From a virus, in IMG/VR virus record IMGVR_UViG_3300034093_002302, positions 1-22,370 of that record: 22,370 nucleotides of DNA; one strand, written 5' to 3'. This document shows, in pieces, positions 1,410-10,240 of the stretch. Position numbers and translations under genes: made by a program. The notes beneath the pieces are model-generated. The model searched no databases. It saw only the letters and a program-made list of their open reading frames with translations, and was not told the DNA's origin. Within the stretch, counting starts at the first letter, position 1, and every line of letters begins with the position of its first letter.

Positions 1410-1844
1410 TCAACTGCCTAACTTGTTTTTGATGTGGGAGCCATGGACACGAACGCTGATCTGTCCGTTATAATAATCATCTGATTCTAAGACTTGGTGT
1501 CTAAATTGTTCACGTGCTTCGATGTAGGAGCACTCTGATTTGGATTTGCAATAAAAAAGTATTTCTCTAGTAAACTTGTCTGAGCCTAATATTTCTATGT
1601 CTTTGTTTAGTTCGTCGTTTGAGCCATAATATGTTTGCCAATCTGAATCTATTTTACTTCTAATTTTCTTTCTTTTTTTGTTACCATTTTTGAGCTTTAC
1701 TACTCGATAAGTAGTTTTGCTAAATTTAGCAAGTTTTTTACCTATGTATTTACGACCCGACACTGTATTTGTAATAATATAAACATACCCGACGCAATCT
1801 TCGGGTAATGTTTCAATCTGTGTGTTCTCAAATAACCATGTCAT
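1410..1844 (-). CDS. SegE-like GIY-YIG endonuclease
   Basis: This 144-residue protein has a GIY-YIG nuclease signature: GYVYIITN at residues 19-26 and KYIGKK at 32-37. A basic stretch follows (about 49-64), then WQTYYGSNDELNKDI, then REILFYCKSKSECSYIEAREQF with Glu109 as the likely metal-binding glutamate. This arrangement matches the SegE-type branch of T4-like phages, whose members act as free-standing homing nucleases. The gene begins 9 bases after the SDR gene and is the last of the minus operon; AAGG lies rather far upstream of its ATG. It might move neighbouring DNA between phages or be a domesticated nuclease. Its target cannot be inferred. A hairpin (1394-1409) abuts the stop codon. 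Confidence 0.8.
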   Translation of the reverse strand: MTWLFENTQIETLPEDCVGYVYIITNTVSGRKYIGKKLAKFSKTTYRVVKLKNGNKKRKKIRSKIDSDWQTYYGSNDELNKDIEILGSDKFTREILFYCKSKSECSYIEAREQFRHQVLESDDYYNGQISVRVHGSHIKNKLGS

Positions 1845-1853
1845 GTAACATAA

Positions 1854-2438
1854 TTATGCCTTGTAATCAAGATTGCAATAAAATGTTATTTCTTCAATAC
1901 AGGTACTTGGACTAGTGGTCACTGCATATTTTATAAAATCTGACACTTCTGCCAGGTTAATACCGTTGCCAGTCCATGTTGCACGACTGCGACTAAGCTC
2001 TGTATCTAAGCGATCTAGAGTAATCAAGGTTGTTTTAAACGGTACATGATTGGTCTTAAATGATGCGGTACACTGCTTACTGGCATGGGCCAGTGCTGCT
2101 TTGGCCACACGATACGTTTCAAAGCCAGGCTCACGAGCAACAATACTTTTTTCTCCGGTACTGCCTACGTTAAAAATATAACCCAATTTACCTGCCTGTT
2201 TCCATGCATCGTACACTGCTGCCAGTACCTGTACTTGACCAAAGTTAGCCCAAGATTCTTGGGGAGGCCCATCAAATGCATTGTTTACAAATACATCATA
2301 CTTTAAACTATGTTCTGCAATCTGCTCTACATCTTTGGTAATGTCAAATCCAGTGGATCTGCTAATACCATCTGCACCAAACACATTACATAAAAATTGT
2401 CCTAGCCCCCTATTGCCGCCTGTTACTAGCATCTTCAT
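1854..2438 (-). CDS. Short-chain dehydrogenase/reductase (SDR)
   Basis: A 194-residue NAD(P)-dependent oxidoreductase of the SDR family. TGGNRGLG at residues 6-13 is the Rossmann nucleotide-binding loop, VNNA at 51-54 the structural motif, Ser93 a candidate catalytic serine, and YRVAK at 109-113 supplies the catalytic Tyr and Lys. It is somewhat short for the family, so substrate-binding parts may be reduced. An in-frame ATG at 2462 exists, but the ATG at 2438 is preferred: it overlaps the previous stop as ATGA and has a perfect AAGGAGG 9 bases upstream. The substrate is unknown. Its position directly after two radical SAM enzymes suggests a shared pathway, for example on a sugar or modified nucleotide; that is inference. 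Confidence 0.85.
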   Translation of the reverse strand: MKMLVTGGNRGLGQFLCNVFGADGISRSTGFDITKDVEQIAEHSLKYDVFVNNAFDGPPQESWANFGQVQVLAAVYDAWKQAGKLGYIFNVGSTGEKSIVAREPGFETYRVAKAALAHASKQCTASFKTNHVPFKTTLITLDRLDTELSRSRATWTGNGINLAEVSDFIKYAVTTSPSTCIEEITFYCNLDYKA

Positions 2439-3550
2439 CTGATGGATCCTCCTTGATCCCATACTTTAGTAAACTTTTCTCCACACGTCATGGCACATTC
2501 CATGATACGATCTTTTGTGCCCCAGCCTGCGGCTAGTTCTTGCCAAAATTTAGATTTAAAAATATTCTCTAAACTGCAATTGTTTAAATCTAGTTCTGTT
2601 TGATATTTCTGTACAAACTGCTGAATCTGAACCTTGCCATCTACGTAACTGTGCTGACTGCTTCCGGGCAATGCACCAGGTGTGTGAAATCTAGCATCGT
2701 ACAGGTTATGGTTGAAAAAATTGCAAGGCAGTACCAGCCCTTGCGCATTGACAGCAACTTTTTTACCCGCAGCAGCATCGCATTGGATTGTGGTCTGCTG
2801 CAGATATTCTCCAAAACTTCCGTACATGTGTTTTAACACTTGTATCTTTTGTACACTGGGATTGCGTAATTCTGCGCTGGTTGGAGCTTCTAATTGAAAT
2901 TCAACATCGCCTTTTTTATCCATTACCGGCCAGTATTTGAATTCTGTTTCATTTTGATGATCGTAAAAGCGACCGGTCTTTCTTGCTAGAAAATTAAAAA
3001 ATCCATATTCCTTGCTCAACTGCCTGGCCTGTTCCGATTGATGTTCGTTGTGCTTGAACGCAATAAAGTTCCATTGCGCCCTACCGCCTGCTTTAATATA
3101 TGCTCTTGCATTACGCATGGCAACTGTGTATTTTACATTACGACGATACAAATGTAAAGTATCTTCTAGTCCATCGAACCCAAAGTCAATTTGCCCGTAC
3201 CCGTTCATTATGGTAGCAATTTCTGCCCAGTAATGTTCGTCGTGTACACCGCCATTGGTATGAACATACAGCCACAGCGTGGGATTCTTGCGTCTAAAGT
3301 CCTGTAGAATATCTAAAAAATCTGGATGCATTATAGGGTCGCCATAACTGCCACAGAAAAATACCTGTCTAAGCTTACCGCAATGTTCAACACTAAATGC
3401 CGCATCAATGGCCTCTCTACTCAAATGCACCAGCGGCATGTAGGGATTAACGCCTTGCCCTAATTCATTCCGGGGACATTGAGGACAGGCAGCATTACAA
3501 TAGGTTGTAATTTCAATTTGGTACTCGGTTATGTTGTTATAATTAAACAT
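2435..3550 (-). CDS. Radical SAM enzyme with SPASM-like C-terminal domain
   Basis: A 371-residue radical S-adenosylmethionine enzyme. The cluster motif CNAACPQC has Cys18, Cys22 and Cys25 in the CxxxCxxC order that holds the catalytic [4Fe-4S]. A CGSYGDP segment and an LYVHTNGG strand continue the barrel. The C-terminal part carries Cys257, Cys276, Cys325, Cys352 and Cys356; the C-x18-C pair around a QGLVLPC turn and the closing CAMTC look like a SPASM domain binding extra Fe-S clusters, as in peptide-modifying maturases. I start at the ATG at 3550, which overlaps the upstream stop by 8 bases (AATGTTTAA); an in-frame ATG at 3649 would add 33 residues overlapping a better gene. Similar proteins occur in aquatic phages as I recall. 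The substrate is unknown. Confidence 0.85.
   Translation of the reverse strand: MFNYNNITEYQIEITTYCNAACPQCPRNELGQGVNPYMPLVHLSREAIDAAFSVEHCGKLRQVFFCGSYGDPIMHPDFLDILQDFRRKNPTLWLYVHTNGGVHDEHYWAEIATIMNGYGQIDFGFDGLEDTLHLYRRNVKYTVAMRNARAYIKAGGRAQWNFIAFKHNEHQSEQARQLSKEYGFFNFLARKTGRFYDHQNETEFKYWPVMDKKGDVEFQLEAPTSAELRNPSVQKIQVLKHMYGSFGEYLQQTTIQCDAAAGKKVAVNAQGLVLPCNFFNHNLYDARFHTPGALPGSSQHSYVDGKVQIQQFVQKYQTELDLNNCSLENIFKSKFWQELAAGWGTKDRIMECAMTCGEKFTKVWDQGGSIR
2448..2454 (-). promoter_or_regulatory. Strong Shine-Dalgarno deciding the SDR start
   Basis: AAGGAGG on the minus strand, 9 bases before the ATG at 2438 and inside the last codons of the upstream radical SAM gene. It lies downstream of the alternative ATG at 2462, so it rules in favour of the shorter SDR. 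It is the strongest ribosome site I noticed in the minus operon. Confidence 0.8.
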
Positions 3551-4028
3551 TAAAGTATGCTTTAATCTGCTGTAACACTTCTTTAGTTGTTTGTTGTCCG
3601 TCCATGGTTGTGTCATTGATATTAAACAAATCTTGTATCCATGAATCAATTGGGCTATTAAAATTTAGTAATAAAACTCCGTTGTGTCCAAGATATAAAC
3701 TATGCTCCGGTGGCCCAACGGTGTCCCACGGAGGTAGATATGCCAATTGCTTAAATTTGTGTATGTGATACTTTAAGTCAACATCGTTGATGTAAATCTT
3801 ATGTAATTCAAAATACTTGTCTGGGTTATTATCTAACAAATAGTTTTTTCCGTAGTGCTCTATTTTAAGATCATTGCAGTCTTGGAAATCTAGCGTAAAT
3901 TCTTTTTCCCACGTCGTGGAATTAGCTTCAAATCTGTCAATAATGACATCATTGATCTTGATCATTATCAACGGCCATCCATTGCTATTCTGTGAGTGAT
4001 ATTCTAATTTTAGTTTTATACTTGCCAT
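3543..4028 (-). CDS. Uncharacterised beta-rich protein between two radical SAM genes
   Basis: A 161-residue protein that I do not recognise. It alternates short hydrophobic and charged stretches (IKLKLEYHSQNS, WEKEFTLDF, LYLGHNGVLLLNF), which suggests a beta-sandwich, and ends in a helical QQTTKEVLQQIKAYFNV. Aromatic residues are frequent, as in carbohydrate-binding folds, but that is only an impression. No signal peptide, membrane segment or cysteine motif is seen; it has a single cysteine. Its first 44 bases overlap the end of the upstream radical SAM gene; an internal ATG at 3965 would avoid the overlap but cut an apparent strand. Its stop overlaps the next radical SAM start by 8 bases. 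It may be a partner or substrate of these enzymes. Confidence 0.7.
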   Translation of the reverse strand: MASIKLKLEYHSQNSNGWPLIMIKINDVIIDRFEANSTTWEKEFTLDFQDCNDLKIEHYGKNYLLDNNPDKYFELHKIYINDVDLKYHIHKFKQLAYLPPWDTVGPPEHSLYLGHNGVLLLNFNSPIDSWIQDLFNINDTTMDGQQTTKEVLQQIKAYFNV

Positions 4029-5469
4029 TGGTTATCTTTTTGTATGCTTCTTTGAGTCTTAATAGCTGACTGTCACCGTTCCAAATTTTATAACCCAGCT
4101 CCATTAATATTTCCTGCAATTTTATTCTACGATTAATGCGTTCTTTAAATGTTAATTGCGGATTTATTGCCAAGGTCCAATCAAATCCCACAGCCTCGCT
4201 GTGGAACTCTTCATGCAACGGAGTGCCTTCGTCAATACTGGCAGTGCTGCCTAAGTTAACTCCGTAAATAGTTCCATCAAGCGCATACTTCTTGTATTGT
4301 TTAAATCTTTCTATTCCTACATTAAAGTCTTGTTCGGTTTCTGTTGGGTATCCAACTATCATTAAAAAGTAACAATTCATATCATTTTTATGCATCTGAG
4401 CTAAGGTAAAATCAAGATCGTCGTCGGTAAATCCTTTTTTCATATGATCACGCACAGATTCACTCAAGCTTTCTATACCTAGTGCTACTCCATTCATACC
4501 AGCAATAGCTGCCAATTGATAATCAGCTTCGGTGAATACAGTGGGGTTACGCACAATAAACTGTCCTCCCCAGCTGAAAAATTTTGAAGGCAGATTGTTA
4601 TTTTTATAAAAAGCTGCTAGGGTTTCACACAACTCTCTAAAATTCTTCACACTACCATTGATTAGACTATCAGTAAACCAAAAATTAGTAACATTGTATT
4701 TTTTAAAATGGTAAATCATTTCATTGGCTACACTAATTCCGGATCTAAACCTATATTTTTTCCATGCCACATGTATGTCGCAGAAGCTGCATTTGCGCAC
4801 ACATCCTCTGCTACTGGTAATTGGTATTTGTGGAGTTTTAGAGGTATAGCGATACTCTAACTCAATCACATCATCATAGTTAGGATAAGCAATATTATCT
4901 AAGTCATCTATCTGATTGGCTAAATCGTTGTTGATACCAGGTGCATCGTATTTTCCCTGTAGCAGATTGATAATATTAACATCACCTTCGCCTCTTATAT
5001 AAAAATTAATTAAATTATTAGCCAGTAATGCTGTACCAAAATCATTAGCATACGCTCCTATTCCGTTGGTGCTTATTCCAGCACCACCAATTAAAATTTG
5101 ATTCTTAAACACTGGGCGTAACTTTTGTAATAATTGTTTAGTAAAAAGCTGACACTGAAACGTAAACACGCTGATGCCTAGCCATCTAGGATTAATGCTG
5201 ACAATTTCTTCAATAATGTGTTGATAGTAAGAATCCAAATAGTCTTTTTCAGCAACATCAAGTTCAGCTTCGGTAATGTTTAAACTAAAATATTGATCTA
5301 GTTTTTGTGCAATAACAACATCTGTACACTCAGAATATAGTTTTAAATTATAATCTTTAACTTGAGCAGTATACCCGTGATGCTCGCAGATTCCTTTTAA
5401 TAAACTAGTAGCTGCAGGTGGATATACCAAGGATATTTGCGGCACATTTATTAAAAGAATATCTATCAT
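3985..5469 (-). CDS. Cobalamin-binding-type radical SAM enzyme
   Basis: A 494-residue protein with the two-domain plan of B12-binding radical SAM enzymes. Residues 1-170 look like the cobalamin-binding Rossmann domain: VYPPAATSLLKGI near the start, LGISVFTFQCQLFTKQLL at 97-114, ILIGGAGIST at 125-134 and FYIRGEGD at 156-163. No DxHxxG motif was seen, so cobalamin ligation would not use that histidine. The radical SAM domain follows, with SSRGCVRKCSFC placing Cys223, Cys227 and Cys230, then a FTDSLINGS strand, GIES at 327-330 and a MIVGYPTET turn. Members often methylate or rearrange unreactive carbons. Its ATG overlaps the gp46 stop as ATGA with no ribosome site of its own, so translation is probably coupled to gp46. 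Confidence 0.87.
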   Translation of the reverse strand: MIDILLINVPQISLVYPPAATSLLKGICEHHGYTAQVKDYNLKLYSECTDVVIAQKLDQYFSLNITEAELDVAEKDYLDSYYQHIIEEIVSINPRWLGISVFTFQCQLFTKQLLQKLRPVFKNQILIGGAGISTNGIGAYANDFGTALLANNLINFYIRGEGDVNIINLLQGKYDAPGINNDLANQIDDLDNIAYPNYDDVIELEYRYTSKTPQIPITSSRGCVRKCSFCDIHVAWKKYRFRSGISVANEMIYHFKKYNVTNFWFTDSLINGSVKNFRELCETLAAFYKNNNLPSKFFSWGGQFIVRNPTVFTEADYQLAAIAGMNGVALGIESLSESVRDHMKKGFTDDDLDFTLAQMHKNDMNCYFLMIVGYPTETEQDFNVGIERFKQYKKYALDGTIYGVNLGSTASIDEGTPLHEEFHSEAVGFDWTLAINPQLTFKERINRRIKLQEILMELGYKIWNGDSQLLRLKEAYKKITNGKYKTKIRISLTE

Positions 5470-7235
5470 ACAATATCAACATCAGTATTGTAACTGGTAA
5501 ACCCGTTTTCTTTTACTACACTTAGCACATTGTTTACCCGCCCAGCTAGCTCGTCCTTGTGTGACACTAGCCAAACTGAGCGATTGCCTTCACGTGCCAT
5601 TTTTTTCAATATAGCTAGGCTGTTCTCTACACCCGAACTATCCATGCCAGTATCAATTACTTCATCAATAAACATCAGGTTGATTGGTTGGTACAAGCTT
5701 TCCCACACATCACGGAACGCCCAGCTTAGACTCAGTATTAATCTGTTACGCTCGCCCCGACTCAGGTTGTCAAAGTCTAGCTCACGACCCAGTTCCTCAA
5801 TGCTAACTGTCAGGTCATTCAAGAACTTGACAGTGTGAGGCAAGCCAATACGATCTAGATATTGTCCCAGTCTAGCATTCAAGTAACTTAGGTTCTGATC
5901 AATAATACGTTTGCGAATGAAACTGTCTTTGTTGGTTAACAACTTGAGTAAAAAGTCTTGATGCTCTCGAACATTGGTCAATTGATTGATCATGTTGTAG
6001 TCAATTTCTTCTACTGCTTGGGTTTGCATTTCTTGGATTTGTTCGGCGTACGGATCTATTTCAAGTTGTTTTGCAGCCAACTGTTGCTGCAAGTTTTCAA
6101 TTGAATTGCGATGATTGATCGCATCTTCTTTGCTGTCATAAAAAATACTAGGAACTGGCCCTGGAACACCCAACTCTAACAATTTGGCAATATGTTCTTG
6201 TAATTGCGTATCAGTTGACAGATATTGCATGGCAGTTTCTGCCATGGCAGCACGTTTTTCGGTCAATACTTCTTGGTGTTTGCTGTCATGTAAAGATTGC
6301 CCACAGGCATAACATTCATGTTTTTCTAGTTTTTCTATTTCTGTTTTTAATTTTTCTTGAATTTTTAATAAACGCACTTGCTCTTGTTCGCACGAAATCT
6401 TCCAACGGGTTGTTTCTTTGATTTCTTTTGTCAGCTGATTGTGCAAATCCAGGCTGTCATGATTAACCAGCTCTTGTTTGATATCAATACTTGACAGCGC
6501 AGCCAATGCAGTTTCAAGTTTGGCAACGTCTTCGGCTTGTTTGTTTTGCCAAAGCGTCTGTCTGCGTCGTGTGGCATCAATTTGTTCTTGTATTCTAGCG
6601 TTGGCATCAGTTACTGCCTTGATACGATACTCTTCTGCGGTTATTGCATCTTTGCTGGCTTTCAGTTGCTCTTTCAGCAGATCAGCTTTTTCACTCAATA
6701 CTGTAATACCCAGCAGTTGCTCAATAATAGTGCGCTGTTCATTTGCTTTAAGCGCCAAGAATGGCTCAGTGTAGGTGTTAAGTGCCACAATATGCTTGAA
6801 CATGTCATGACTCATGCCCAGCATACGTTCTATGGCTGCTTGGGTTTCTCTACTATCGCCTTGACTCTCATCTGTAATTTCTTGTTCTTGATCGCCAATA
6901 TAAAATGCCATGGTGTTGGGTTTACGACCGCGTTCAATCTTGTATTCTGTGCCATTGTTTTCAAACTCAATAGTGACCAACATGTTCTTGGCATTGGTTT
7001 TGTTGATCAAGTTGTCTTTTTTGATATTGGTCAAAGCTGACCCATACAAGGCATAACTCAGTGCATTAATAATAGTAGTCTTACCAGTTCCGTTTCTGGC
7101 TCCGGTATCATCACCGCCTAGGTCCAAATTTTGTCCAAGCACCAAGGTAAGGTCACGACGATCAAATTGAACAGCCTGAGTGGTATTGCCCACGCTCATG
7201 AAATTCTTGACTGCAAGAGTTTTTATTTTAAACAT
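5466..7235 (-). CDS. 46: Recombination endonuclease subunit gp46 (Rad50/SbcC-like)
   Basis: A 589-residue SMC-type ATPase, close in length to T4 gp46. Walker A is GARNGTGKT at residues 45-53; two coiled-coil arms surround a zinc hook, CYAC at 308-311; the ABC signature LSRGERNRL begins at 491; Walker B LMFIDE is at 520-525; and an LVSHKDEL switch histidine lies near 566-573. With gp47 it resects DNA ends for recombination-dependent replication and helps degrade host DNA in T4. Its ATG overlaps the upstream stop by 8 bases (AATGTTTAA), and its own stop overlaps the first radical SAM start. Unlike many relatives, gp46 and gp47 are separated here by two small genes. Confidence 0.95.
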   Translation of the reverse strand: MFKIKTLAVKNFMSVGNTTQAVQFDRRDLTLVLGQNLDLGGDDTGARNGTGKTTIINALSYALYGSALTNIKKDNLINKTNAKNMLVTIEFENNGTEYKIERGRKPNTMAFYIGDQEQEITDESQGDSRETQAAIERMLGMSHDMFKHIVALNTYTEPFLALKANEQRTIIEQLLGITVLSEKADLLKEQLKASKDAITAEEYRIKAVTDANARIQEQIDATRRRQTLWQNKQAEDVAKLETALAALSSIDIKQELVNHDSLDLHNQLTKEIKETTRWKISCEQEQVRLLKIQEKLKTEIEKLEKHECYACGQSLHDSKHQEVLTEKRAAMAETAMQYLSTDTQLQEHIAKLLELGVPGPVPSIFYDSKEDAINHRNSIENLQQQLAAKQLEIDPYAEQIQEMQTQAVEEIDYNMINQLTNVREHQDFLLKLLTNKDSFIRKRIIDQNLSYLNARLGQYLDRIGLPHTVKFLNDLTVSIEELGRELDFDNLSRGERNRLILSLSWAFRDVWESLYQPINLMFIDEVIDTGMDSSGVENSLAILKKMAREGNRSVWLVSHKDELAGRVNNVLSVVKENGFTSYNTDVDIV

Positions 7236-7749
7236 TGAGGTTTTTAAGTTCCTGAGATTGCAAGTGAGTCAAGGTTAAAAAATTTTCTTCTAATATTGAG
7301 GATTTACTTTTAACTATTTCTTTAATTTCGTCTATGGGTTTTAACACAAAATCTTTAATAGTATTTTCTAAATAACACCATCGTTTGATAGGATCAAGGA
7401 TACTGTCGTATCCTTCGTCAATGATGTCGGGAAATGTGTGGAACCCCTTTGAGCGCAATAATGCCAAGGTTCCGGGTGCGCCAACAATGATAAACAATCT
7501 TTTGCATGCAATTGGTCGTAGACTTTTTTCAGATATATACGGATATCTATAATTATACACAGTTTCAGTAACAACATCAAGTGCAATTTTTTCATAAAAA
7601 CTAGAAAAATGTCTTGTGCTAACTGCATTAGCTTTACCAGTTATTAACGAGTGTGCAGTTATACTTGAATTATTATATGGAATAGAATTATCAAGCCATA
7701 GCTCGTTGGTTCTAGTAAACGGCACAGTTGAAATGTAGGTAGCGGTCAT
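7228..7749 (-). CDS. Conserved phage protein, C-terminal half of an apparently split family
   Basis: A 173-residue protein of unknown function. Its core reads VVTETVYNY, then ISEKSLRPIACKRLFIIVG, then GTLALLRSKGFHTF and IIDEGYDSILDP. I associate this order (T-E-T, S-E-K, P-I, G-F-x-T-F, D-E-x-Y-D) with the C-terminal half of uncharacterised proteins of about 300-370 residues in aquatic phages, sometimes likened to glycosyltransferases. Here it is a separate gene whose ATG overlaps the stop of the previous gene as ATGA, and that gene resembles the matching N-terminal half. It ends in a helical, charged tail and overlaps gp46 by 8 bases. Glycosyl transfer is a weak guess; no donor-binding motif can be named. 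Confidence 0.75.
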   Translation of the reverse strand: MTATYISTVPFTRTNELWLDNSIPYNNSSITAHSLITGKANAVSTRHFSSFYEKIALDVVTETVYNYRYPYISEKSLRPIACKRLFIIVGAPGTLALLRSKGFHTFPDIIDEGYDSILDPIKRWCYLENTIKDFVLKPIDEIKEIVKSKSSILEENFLTLTHLQSQELKNLNV

Positions 7750-8294
7750 TTATTATGGTATGCTGTTGCAATCACGTCTAGTAAATTATTGTTGTTAATA
7801 AAACTAGCGAGTACATCTCTATGCACTCTACCAGCACCCATCATGGCGATCCCCGGAACTTCAATAGCATCCGTATTAATGTTGTGATTCTCATATTCAC
7901 TGCTGTAGTGTAATGTAGAAATAAAAGATGAGATTACAGTTGGGCGATCAAATTGATCGTGCGCGGCTAACAAAAGTTCAAGTTCTTTTTCTATACCAAA
8001 ATGATTTGTAAATAACAACAAAGTAAATAACGGAATATCAACTGTTACAAATGCAGTAATCAAGTTGTACAAAGAAAACCCGTACGGAAAATCTGGCAAA
8101 TAAAAGTCCGTATCCATGTGCTCAATTATGATACGATCAGCTGAACTGAAGCGGTCTTTTTTGATTTGTGTCAGATATTCCTCTAATAGAGAAAAGTTTT
8201 CATCAAATTCCAAGAAATTAAAATGCCCAATTATTGTAAATTTTGAATACAATGCCTTGCGATACTCAGCCGACATTTCAAGCAAGGACGACAT
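7746..8294 (-). CDS. Conserved phage protein, N-terminal half of an apparently split family
   Basis: A 182-residue protein of unknown function. Visible landmarks are RIIIEHMDTDFYLPDFPYGFSL, a hydrophobic DIPLFTLLLFTNHFGIEKEL, and AMMGAGRVHRDVLASF near the end. The TNHFGI and MMG-x2-R-x-HR pieces recall the N-terminal half of the same large phage family whose C-terminal half is the next gene. The hydrophobic run is too short and too acid-flanked to be a convincing membrane anchor. The ATG directly follows the gp47 stop (TAAATG), with AGGAA 8 bases upstream as ribosome site inside the end of gp47. Probably the two polypeptides act together; that is inference. Confidence 0.75.
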   Translation of the reverse strand: MSSLLEMSAEYRKALYSKFTIIGHFNFLEFDENFSLLEEYLTQIKKDRFSSADRIIIEHMDTDFYLPDFPYGFSLYNLITAFVTVDIPLFTLLLFTNHFGIEKELELLLAAHDQFDRPTVISSFISTLHYSSEYENHNINTDAIEVPGIAMMGAGRVHRDVLASFINNNNLLDVIATAYHNK

Positions 8295-9314
8295 TTATAG
8301 ATTCCTGTAGATATCCAGCAACAATTTAGGATTGTACTGTTTGCTGTCAATATTAGTAAGCTGATTTGTTACAATAGTATCCACGCTTTCGAACATGATA
8401 TTGCCCTGCACATCAAAAGAAATATCATCACCTGTTACTTTTTGCGGAATAAGAGTGATCTCTCTGAGTTTGTATGTATTTACAAAAGTTTCTTTGATAA
8501 ACGTGGCTTCTTCGTAGCTGATGTCAACATCTAGATTGACCCGCACATGCATGCCTGGGTGCAACATAGTGTCAGTATTATTTAATACATCACTCAGCTG
8601 GTACACACGATATCTAGGTTGATCAGTCCATGCATGATATTCAGGCTTGCTGCCCCAGGTCATGACCATCATACCGCGGTCGTCGTCGCCGTTGTCGGCG
8701 TAGTTGTGTGGAAAGCAATTGCCTATGTAGGTAATGTTGTTTGCAGTCTGACGTTTGTGAAAGTGCCCAGTGAATACATGCTCAAACCCGCCAAAGTCAC
8801 CTCTAGCAATTTCACCATGATCCGGCATTTGTACCATGGCGTTCATGTAGTATCCAGGCAACTCAAAGTGCCCAAACATGTACTTGCCTTTTAGCCGTGG
8901 AATACGCTTATGATCGTCGCCGCAAAGCCAAGGCGCAATAACCACATCGCCAGACTGAAACCAGTCGTTGCAGATGTGGATATTTTTAAGATGTTTGGCC
9001 CATTCTACACTTTGAACATCACGCTTGTCACGATAGTACAAATCGTGATTGCCGGGAATAAAGTAAACAGACTCAAAATTGTCATTCAAGTGCTCTAGTG
9101 CTTGCAAGCTGTAGTTGAGAGTCACAATGTTAATACTGGCACGATTGTTGTGCCAATCACCGAGGAACATGGCTGTTTCGCAACCTTCCTCCCGGGCTTT
9201 GGCAGTAAACCACTTGATAAAGTTCAAGCAATCTTCATTGTGTTGAGTGCTATTACTTTTTAAACCAAAATGAATATCAGTGCAGATGGCTACTTTGCGA
9301 AATAAATTAGTCAT
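8295..9314 (-). CDS. 47: Recombination endonuclease subunit gp47 (Mre11/SbcD-like)
   Basis: A 339-residue metallophosphoesterase matching T4 gp47 in length. The metal-binding motifs are in order: DIH at residues 13-15, GDWHNNR at 52-58, GNHD at 88-91, GHFE at 148-151 and GHFHKRQ at 183-189. It is the nuclease partner of the gp46 ATPase and works in the cytoplasm on DNA ends. The C-terminal 100 residues would form the capping and gp46-contact regions. The ATG at 9314 is preceded directly by AGTAGG with almost no spacing, which is unusually close for a ribosome site, yet no better start exists before the first metal motif. It follows gp55 by 38 bases. Confidence 0.95.
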   Translation of the reverse strand: MTNLFRKVAICTDIHFGLKSNSTQHNEDCLNFIKWFTAKAREEGCETAMFLGDWHNNRASINIVTLNYSLQALEHLNDNFESVYFIPGNHDLYYRDKRDVQSVEWAKHLKNIHICNDWFQSGDVVIAPWLCGDDHKRIPRLKGKYMFGHFELPGYYMNAMVQMPDHGEIARGDFGGFEHVFTGHFHKRQTANNITYIGNCFPHNYADNGDDDRGMMVMTWGSKPEYHAWTDQPRYRVYQLSDVLNNTDTMLHPGMHVRVNLDVDISYEEATFIKETFVNTYKLREITLIPQKVTGDDISFDVQGNIMFESVDTIVTNQLTNIDSKQYNPKLLLDIYRNL

Positions 9315-9352: not shown

Positions 9353-10240
9353 TTATTCGTCAACAAAATCTCCACTTGGCGCACCACCACCACCCCAACT
9401 GCCCTGACCTTGCCTAGTATAGCTAGGGGTTAGTCCATTCATCTCAAGAATATCATCTCGAAGATTCTGGTTGCGTTTTTCAATGTTAAGGACTCGAGTA
9501 AAACTATTAGTGATAGCAGCAGTATAATAAGCAAAGGGATTCTGTGATTTGCTCTCGTCAAACTGTAAACCAATTTGACTGAGCTGGAGTAAAGCCTGCG
9601 AACGCATTTCATCATTGTAAGTGTATCCTCTCCAATTGGATCTAGTGGCATAACGCTCACATAACTTCATGAACATGTGAGCTAGTTTTTTGGTCATGGT
9701 ACCGTGTTCGCGACAGAATTCGCCAGTTTCCAAGTCGCCACGCCAGTGGCTATGGCCAACACAATAAGGCTTGCCTTCTTCGTTTAACCGATAATGTTTA
9801 AACGGAGGAAAGTTGCACTTGGTGTACTTGGTAGGAGCCACAATTTCCATGCCATCATCATCGTATTCAGTAACAACAGGGGCATCCTCGTCTACCACGA
9901 CTCCTGCTTTTTTCTTTTTTGTAGTATCAATTGGGATGTGTTCCCAGGTCATGATTCTAAAAACAACGTCAGTGTCCGCGATCTTGCTGGGTTTAATAGA
10001 GAAATCATCTAACCGTAATTTATCTGTTGTGGCTGCTTGTGCCAAGTCGTATGCTGCTCTGCCCAGTCGTTCTGCCCGTAACTTTCTGCCTTCGACTGTG
10101 TTCTTTTTGTTAATTTTGTCTACACTGGGCAGAATAATATCGCAGAATCCATCTTCGGGAGTCAAGAAACTGCAGTATGTTGTTTTACTTTTGTGTATTT
10201 CTTTAAGAATATCTCTGTTATTTAGATAATTGTGTTTCAT
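9353..10240 (-). CDS. 55: Late-transcription sigma factor gp55, long form
   Basis: A 295-residue relative of T4 gp55 (185 residues), the divergent sigma factor that directs host RNA polymerase to phage late promoters. The recognisable core is residues 185-270: KLAHMFMKLCERYATRSNWRG, then FDESKSQNPFAYYTAAITNSF and NIEKRNQNLRDDILEMNG. Ahead of it lie a conserved-looking N-terminus (NNRDILKEIHKSK), a Lys-rich then acidic linker (108-130) and a Cys/His cluster, C160-x2-H163 and C176-x2-H179. The tail is Gly-rich and ends SGDFVDE, where T4 gp55 has its sliding-clamp contact; whether this works the same way is unknown. AAAGGG upstream gives a good ribosome site. It is the first gene of the minus operon. 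Confidence 0.92.
   Translation of the reverse strand: MKHNYLNNRDILKEIHKSKTTYCSFLTPEDGFCDIILPSVDKINKKNTVEGRKLRAERLGRAAYDLAQAATTDKLRLDDFSIKPSKIADTDVVFRIMTWEHIPIDTTKKKKAGVVVDEDAPVVTEYDDDGMEIVAPTKYTKCNFPPFKHYRLNEEGKPYCVGHSHWRGDLETGEFCREHGTMTKKLAHMFMKLCERYATRSNWRGYTYNDEMRSQALLQLSQIGLQFDESKSQNPFAYYTAAITNSFTRVLNIEKRNQNLRDDILEMNGLTPSYTRQGQGSWGGGGAPSGDFVDE

Follow-up and report, generated by a model that had tools for sequence, protein, structure and literature searches.

Record IMGVR_UViG_3300034093_002302 of IMG/VR (22,370 bases, analysed whole and called the window below; coordinates are counted on it) raises the question of why a phage should carry, directly behind its gene for the recombination nuclease subunit gp46, genes for two different radical S-adenosylmethionine (SAM) enzymes. 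The two enzymes, rSAM1 and rSAM2, are encoded together with a small protein (mid) lying between them and a short-chain dehydrogenase/reductase (SDR) that follows; all genes given here with window coordinates are on the minus strand. The original prediction took the four genes for one dedicated pathway. The comparisons described here suggest instead that uncultured T4-like, probably jumbo phages carry them as two exchangeable sugar- or glycan-tailoring modules, rSAM1-mid (module 1) and rSAM2-SDR (module 2), placed in a cargo slot that gp46 and a SegE-like gene delimit, a reading that comes close to an even chance of being right.

Two gene pairs with separate histories

More than 200 viral loci were compared, with gene calls in the form of open reading frame tilings. 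The SDR gene directly follows rSAM2 in all 115 viral loci with room for it, and in L123, L153, L174 (8014–9720) and L176 the two are fused as one reading frame of 568–573 amino acids. Being always adjacent and sometimes fused, rSAM2 and SDR are demonstrated, at the level of gene organisation, to be one functional unit. The mid gene adjoins rSAM1 in 82 of 92 distinct cases; the pair is also present in other phages well away from gp46, and it is inverted as a unit relative to gp46 in L008, L064 and L068. Comparison of the loci thus establishes rSAM1 and mid as a unit that is co-inherited, co-inverted, co-transplanted and lost together.

Correlations of pairwise distances among the 53 loci with all genes gave r = 0.97 for rSAM1 and mid, 0.64 for rSAM2 and SDR, 0.66 for gp46 and rSAM2, and 0.19–0.34 for module 1 against everything else (0.22–0.34 between the two modules), with permutation p-values that serve as a guide only, the loci sharing descent. 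Hence, module 2 appears largely to track the phage backbone and module 1 to be exchanged. These separate histories rule out a single obligate four-gene pathway, and the dedicated pathway first proposed is also at odds with the lack of rSAM1 in 23 of 55 rSAM2-anchored slots. The two modules tend to co-occur in the loci compared, and are not obligate partners; rSAM1 was found in 41/71 slots with module 2 versus 4/28 slots with other radical SAM genes, a contrast that is indicative only, as the samples came from different queries.

The ordered set to which the original prediction drew attention does recur. The order rSAM1-mid-rSAM2-SDR is the commonest one (32 of 162 de-duplicated gp46-SegE slots), so that relatives of the two enzymes are not scattered without shared neighbours, and their catalytic residues are invariant rather than degenerate. 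Compared with L006, pN/pS was 0.15–0.27 for the four cassette genes and 0.17 for gp46, and synonymous sites were close to saturation. Purifying selection on the cassette genes is evident from the sequence comparison, and decay of the genes is ruled out by these ratios and the invariant active sites.

The gene set, its coordinates and its overlaps were confirmed: gp46 and rSAM1 share an ATGA, rSAM1 and mid overlap by 44 nt, mid and rSAM2 by 8 nt, and rSAM2 and SDR again by an ATGA. Stop/start overlaps are ordinary in phage operons and by themselves show no shared pathway; they were discarded as proof of one.

The radical SAM enzymes and their partners

rSAM2 (2435..3550, with the ATG at 3550; 371 amino acids) exceeds the curated cut-off of PF04055 in Pfam (E 9.3e-10). 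It had been described as a SPASM-type enzyme on account of C18, C22 and C25 and five C-terminal cysteines. The former three are invariant in 38 orthologs, but only four of the C-terminal cysteines are conserved: C258, C277, C353 and C357 (P0001 numbering) are invariant in the 38 orthologs and in 16 paralogs, whereas the fifth (NNCSLENIF) is variable among the orthologs. A SPASM domain has about seven C-terminal cysteines and two auxiliary clusters, and a Twitch domain four cysteines and one auxiliary cluster. Because four C-terminal cysteines are invariant and the fifth is not, rSAM2 is by its cysteine pattern Twitch-like, with one predicted auxiliary cluster, rather than a full SPASM enzyme.

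The closest solved fold to rSAM2 is that of BlsE (7vob; Foldseek E 1e-10, ~16% identity), and further fold neighbours are MoaA, BtrN, DesII, viperin-like proteins, SuiB, SkfB and PqqE. BlsE acts on cytosylglucuronic acid (PMC3715490). rSAM2 resembles BlsE, BtrN and DesII in fold and in the Twitch-like number of auxiliary cysteines (four), and differs from them in the low identity, in the lack of a sequence-level match and in showing no sign of decarboxylation or deamination. A split radical SAM gene was observed between SDR and SegE in L023 (5006–5945), L059 (8908–9838) and other loci, where a 208-residue core is followed by a Cys-rich protein of 104–109 residues, resembling a SPASM/Twitch domain that has become separate.

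The partner of rSAM2, SDR (1854..2438; 194 amino acids), is a predicted compact NAD(P)-dependent reductase. PF00106 was found in 33/33 members of its family, the window protein being slightly below the cut-off, and the glycine-rich TGxxxGxG loop together with Ser93, Tyr109 and Lys113 is conserved in all 33 aligned sequences.

rSAM1 (3985..5469; 494 amino acids) likewise exceeds the PF04055 curated cut-off (E 2.8e-13), and the cysteines C223, C227 and C230 named in the original prediction form a CxxxCxxC motif that is invariant in 24 sequences. It is a putative cobalamin-type enzyme. The best NCBIfam models are those of B12-rSAM C-/P-methyltransferases and lipid B12-rSAM proteins, but every score is far below the cut-off and the match of the B12 domain to PF02310 is weak (E 0.05). 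Profile matches in the PDB were to 9ccb, RimO, OxsB, CysS, AprD4 and TokK. rSAM1 is accordingly described here as B12-rSAM-like, with cobalamin binding predicted. With the B12-dependent methyltransferases of the PhpK, CysS, TokK and OxsB kinds it shares a radical SAM core and a putative N-terminal B12-like domain; it differs from them in that none of its NCBIfam scores reaches a curated cut-off.

The protein mid (3543..4028; 161 amino acids) has no Pfam match of its own, and its sequence profile gave no meaningful match in the PDB. PF16841, the family of carbohydrate-binding module (CBM) 60, weakly matched 3 of 25 mid relatives (best E 0.0012). An AlphaFold2 model of mid (predicted local distance difference test score, pLDDT, 85) had vCBM60 entries 2xhh/2xfd as its top Foldseek matches (E 6e-5), and VIA-align gave Z 11.1 and 10.8 for these versus 6.5 for the next entry, with 113 residues aligned at Z 11.1. 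The structure models were built on 21–25 sequences. As modelled, mid is a beta-sandwich with the fold of the calcium-dependent carbohydrate-binding modules CBM60 and CBM36, from which it differs in standing alone beside a radical SAM gene and not being appended to a glycosidase.

A search of cultured phages with the four proteins found no useful relatives; weak matches to rSAM2 alone were obtained in Pelagibacter phage Mosig and in Campylobacter phages.

The gp46-SegE slot and its phages

The slot was scanned with gp46, and not the cassette, as the anchor, which gave 62 loci with both gp46 and SegE. Among near relatives, for which alone the frequencies are valid as the window was the starting point of the queries, 19 of the 62 loci are empty, with the two genes 5–240 bp apart at a clean junction, and 33 of 36 non-redundant non-empty slots contain a radical SAM gene. 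The three filled slots free of such a gene are those of L219, with an aminotransferase-mid set, L226, with a NUMOD3 protein, and L221, with an unknown gene on the reverse strand. The slot contents include rSAM2 paralogs, single or doubled, rSAM2-SDR, rSAM1-mid, and aminotransferases dependent on pyridoxal phosphate (PLP) together with mid; SDR-rSAM in reverse order with divergent members is present in L190, L204 and L238. Dioxygenase-like proteins in some slots were assigned by eye, without Pfam support. The position of the cassette, described at first as lying in a DNA recombination operon, is explained by the cargo slot and not by a role in recombination.

The right anchor of the slot, a SegE-like GIY-YIG endonuclease (1410..1844; PF19835, E 1.7e-32), was considered as the homing endonuclease that carries the cargo; this idea is weakened because SegE remains beside gp46 when the slot is empty. 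Its best PHROG match is family 447, named 'NAD synthetase', in disagreement with the Pfam assignment, and that family is probably mislabelled. Filled and empty slots alike have the octamer CATAATTA immediately upstream of SegE (window ~1845–1860; L192, L193, L196, L210 and L216). At the gp46-SegE junction of L210 and L216, the stretch AAGGCATAATTA is identical to the 3' end of the window SDR gene and might be the scar of a deletion or a promoter element of SegE. A promoter and terminator scan gave nothing informative.

The left anchor, gp46 (5466..7235), is SbcC/Rad50-like (phrog_77, E 6e-103). The same gene run begins with a gp55-like late sigma factor (9353..10240; phrog_12791, E 1.5e-78), followed by the SbcD/Mre11-like gp47 (8295..9314; phrog_100, E 8e-60), by u182 (7746..8294; 182 amino acids), an unknown protein with no significant match in Pfam, PHROG or NCBIfam, and by u173 (7228..7749; 173 amino acids), also unknown and with no match in the same three collections. 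The order on the minus strand is gp55-gp47-u182-u173-gp46-rSAM1-mid-rSAM2-SDR-SegE, flanked on the plus strand by baseplate and virion genes. A second variable slot is formed by the gp47-gp46 interval, where other loci have genes different from u173 and u182 or none. In L077 (3847–7143), gp46 is split into residues 1–59 and 53–588 lying ~1.5 kb apart, as an intron or an inserted gene would produce, and many relatives have a 693-residue gp46 with an extra segment of ~105 residues.

The closest cultured gp46 genes are those of PA5oct-like and Atu_ph07-like jumbo phages (46–51% identity). Jumbo phage PA5oct has the same gp55-gp47-gp46 order, without the cassette and without an annotated SegE after gp46. 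The virus of the window is a large, uncultured T4-like phage, and a jumbo phage is suggested because related metagenomic contigs reach 191–286 kb. Contigs of this kind have 4–13 PF04055 matches each; in addition, they hold N_Twi_rSAM genes in a bank of their own. In two of them (L330 and L331, 191–286 kb), about five N_Twi_rSAM genes are clustered with a carbamoyltransferase and many genes without a family match; in L331 the bank lies near genes that resemble, by eye, tail fibre genes, and the set in L330 is similar.

Proposed sugar tailoring and its alternatives

Among the nearest known systems to module 2 is AprD4/AprD3, a radical SAM enzyme and an NADPH-dependent reductase that carry out the C3' deoxygenation in apramycin biosynthesis in two steps (PMC5461906). 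Likewise, an NAD(P)H reductase dedicated to rSAM2 is encoded adjacent to it in 115/115 loci and fused to it in four more. The systems differ in that the rSAM2-SDR pair is fused in some phages, that the substrate is known for the Apr pair and presumed here, and that the rSAM2 profile does not match AprD4 in the PDB at E 1. The weak match to AprD4 (E 0.0024) is that of rSAM1 and not rSAM2, so that either enzyme might carry out a dehydration.

By the logic of that pair, and with both modules acting on a sugar or glycan intermediate, rSAM2 would take a hydrogen from one carbon of the sugar, leaving an oxidised or dehydrated keto-sugar for SDR to reduce with NAD(P)H, the pair deoxygenating or epimerising one position. 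rSAM1 would introduce a second radical change, C-methylation if cobalamin is bound and otherwise a redox step, on a sugar or glycan acceptor held by mid. The product might then join that of the larger, separate radical SAM/carbamoyltransferase cluster of these phages and decorate the virion or the host envelope.

Cellular relatives of rSAM2 (28–38% identity) were found in Bdellovibrionia, Oligoflexia, Verrucomicrobia, Desulfobacterales, Rhodobacterales and Paraburkholderia. Glycosyltransferases or UDP-glucose dehydrogenase are encoded near them in L092, L098, L103 and L105; L092, from Bdellovibrionales, also encodes an rSAM2-SDR pair. In the Bdellovibrionia/Oligoflexia loci L092, L093, L096 and L104, several radical SAM families, including N_Twi_rSAM, stand side by side. 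In Tasman Sea phages, radical SAM and glycosyltransferase genes are enriched together (PMC7150976). Of the substrates originally suggested (a peptide, a sugar or lipid, or a modified nucleotide), a sugar or glycan is the best supported, and a modified nucleotide has little in its favour.

Several observations weigh against sugar tailoring. The glycan-gene neighbours of the cellular relatives were observed without a background rate for comparison, and no glycosyltransferase or nucleotide-sugar gene is present within the window. The Foldseek TM-scores of rSAM2 are modest (0.4–0.5), its profile gave no meaningful sequence match in the PDB, and its modelled resemblance to BlsE may reflect the shared radical SAM/Twitch scaffold alone. 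The binding-module fold predicted for mid does not prove a sugar ligand. In an alignment read by eye, the ND of what we take to be the CBM60 calcium motif is GK or NK in mid, with an invariant Lys61 apparently in place of the first Asp and the second (Asp70) retained. Calcium binding is doubtful because of this apparent replacement, and calcium-dependent sugar binding may be lost. The IMG/VR loci, moreover, are fragments related by descent and not independent.

Maturation of a protein or peptide, in which rSAM1 would modify mid or a phage structural protein in the manner of a maturase of ribosomally synthesised and post-translationally modified peptides (RiPPs) and rSAM2-SDR would make a second protein modification, is unlikely. 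The coupling of rSAM1 and mid, the tightest of the set (r = 0.97), is as expected for an enzyme and its protein substrate; TIGR03975, a RiPP C-methyltransferase model, is among the best for rSAM1, and the fold neighbours of rSAM2 include SuiB, SkfB and PqqE. The rSAM1 score for the RiPP model, however, is 78.7 against a cut-off of 281.85, and SDR and the mid-associated aminotransferases fit small-molecule chemistry better. RiPP maturation systems have a short precursor peptide adjoining the maturase. Between rSAM1 and rSAM2 lies mid alone, a folded, conserved beta-sandwich without a leader/core pattern, no systematic search for precursor peptides having been made.

That the modules make a small molecule, such as a nucleotide analogue or an antibiotic-like compound, against the host or rival phages is rather improbable. 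High turnover of cargo in one slot among relatives, as in defence islands, and a natural product-like chemistry, including the slot aminotransferase and the carbamoyltransferase elsewhere, are consistent with it, but genes related to receptors or glycans would turn over likewise, and the slot gave no recognisable toxin, immunity or transporter gene, a PADLOC scan not being included. A hypermodified nucleotide protecting the phage DNA is very improbable. The genes share their run with the recombination and late sigma genes, behind gp47-gp46, and the fold neighbours of rSAM2 include MoaA- and viperin-like folds, which use GTP or CTP. With the slot empty in 19/62 near relatives, however, such a modification would be dispensable; module 1 is found in phages away from these genes, several cellular relatives of rSAM2 are in glycan loci, and the window revealed no thymidylate, deazaguanine or nucleotide-kinase gene.

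For the most part, radical SAM genes of phages have been catalogued one by one, as auxiliary metabolic genes without function. Radical SAM cassettes are known from the host recognition cluster of pelagimyophages (PMC7029224), which likewise represent variable radical SAM cargo of T4-like aquatic phages; those cassettes lie with tail fibres, whereas the gp46-SegE slot is dominated by radical SAM genes in defined two-gene modules. A literature search, with subscription papers mostly outside it, found no report of this slot, the module pairings or the rSAM2-SDR fusion.

The comparisons define testable units, each enzyme with its partner. Expressing the natural rSAM2-SDR fusion could give a complete catalyst for both steps, and relatives with empty and filled slots form a natural knock-out series. 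It is possible, and put forward tentatively, that the slot is devoted to radical SAM chemistry, its two-gene modules, including the fusion and the pair of a B12-type enzyme with a carbohydrate-fold protein, being swapped, in the course of an arms race, to vary the structure of a sugar borne by the phage or its host. Should the product be a modified sugar, it would be an example of phages developing, as exchangeable cargo, a radical carbohydrate chemistry that is known mainly from antibiotic pathways.

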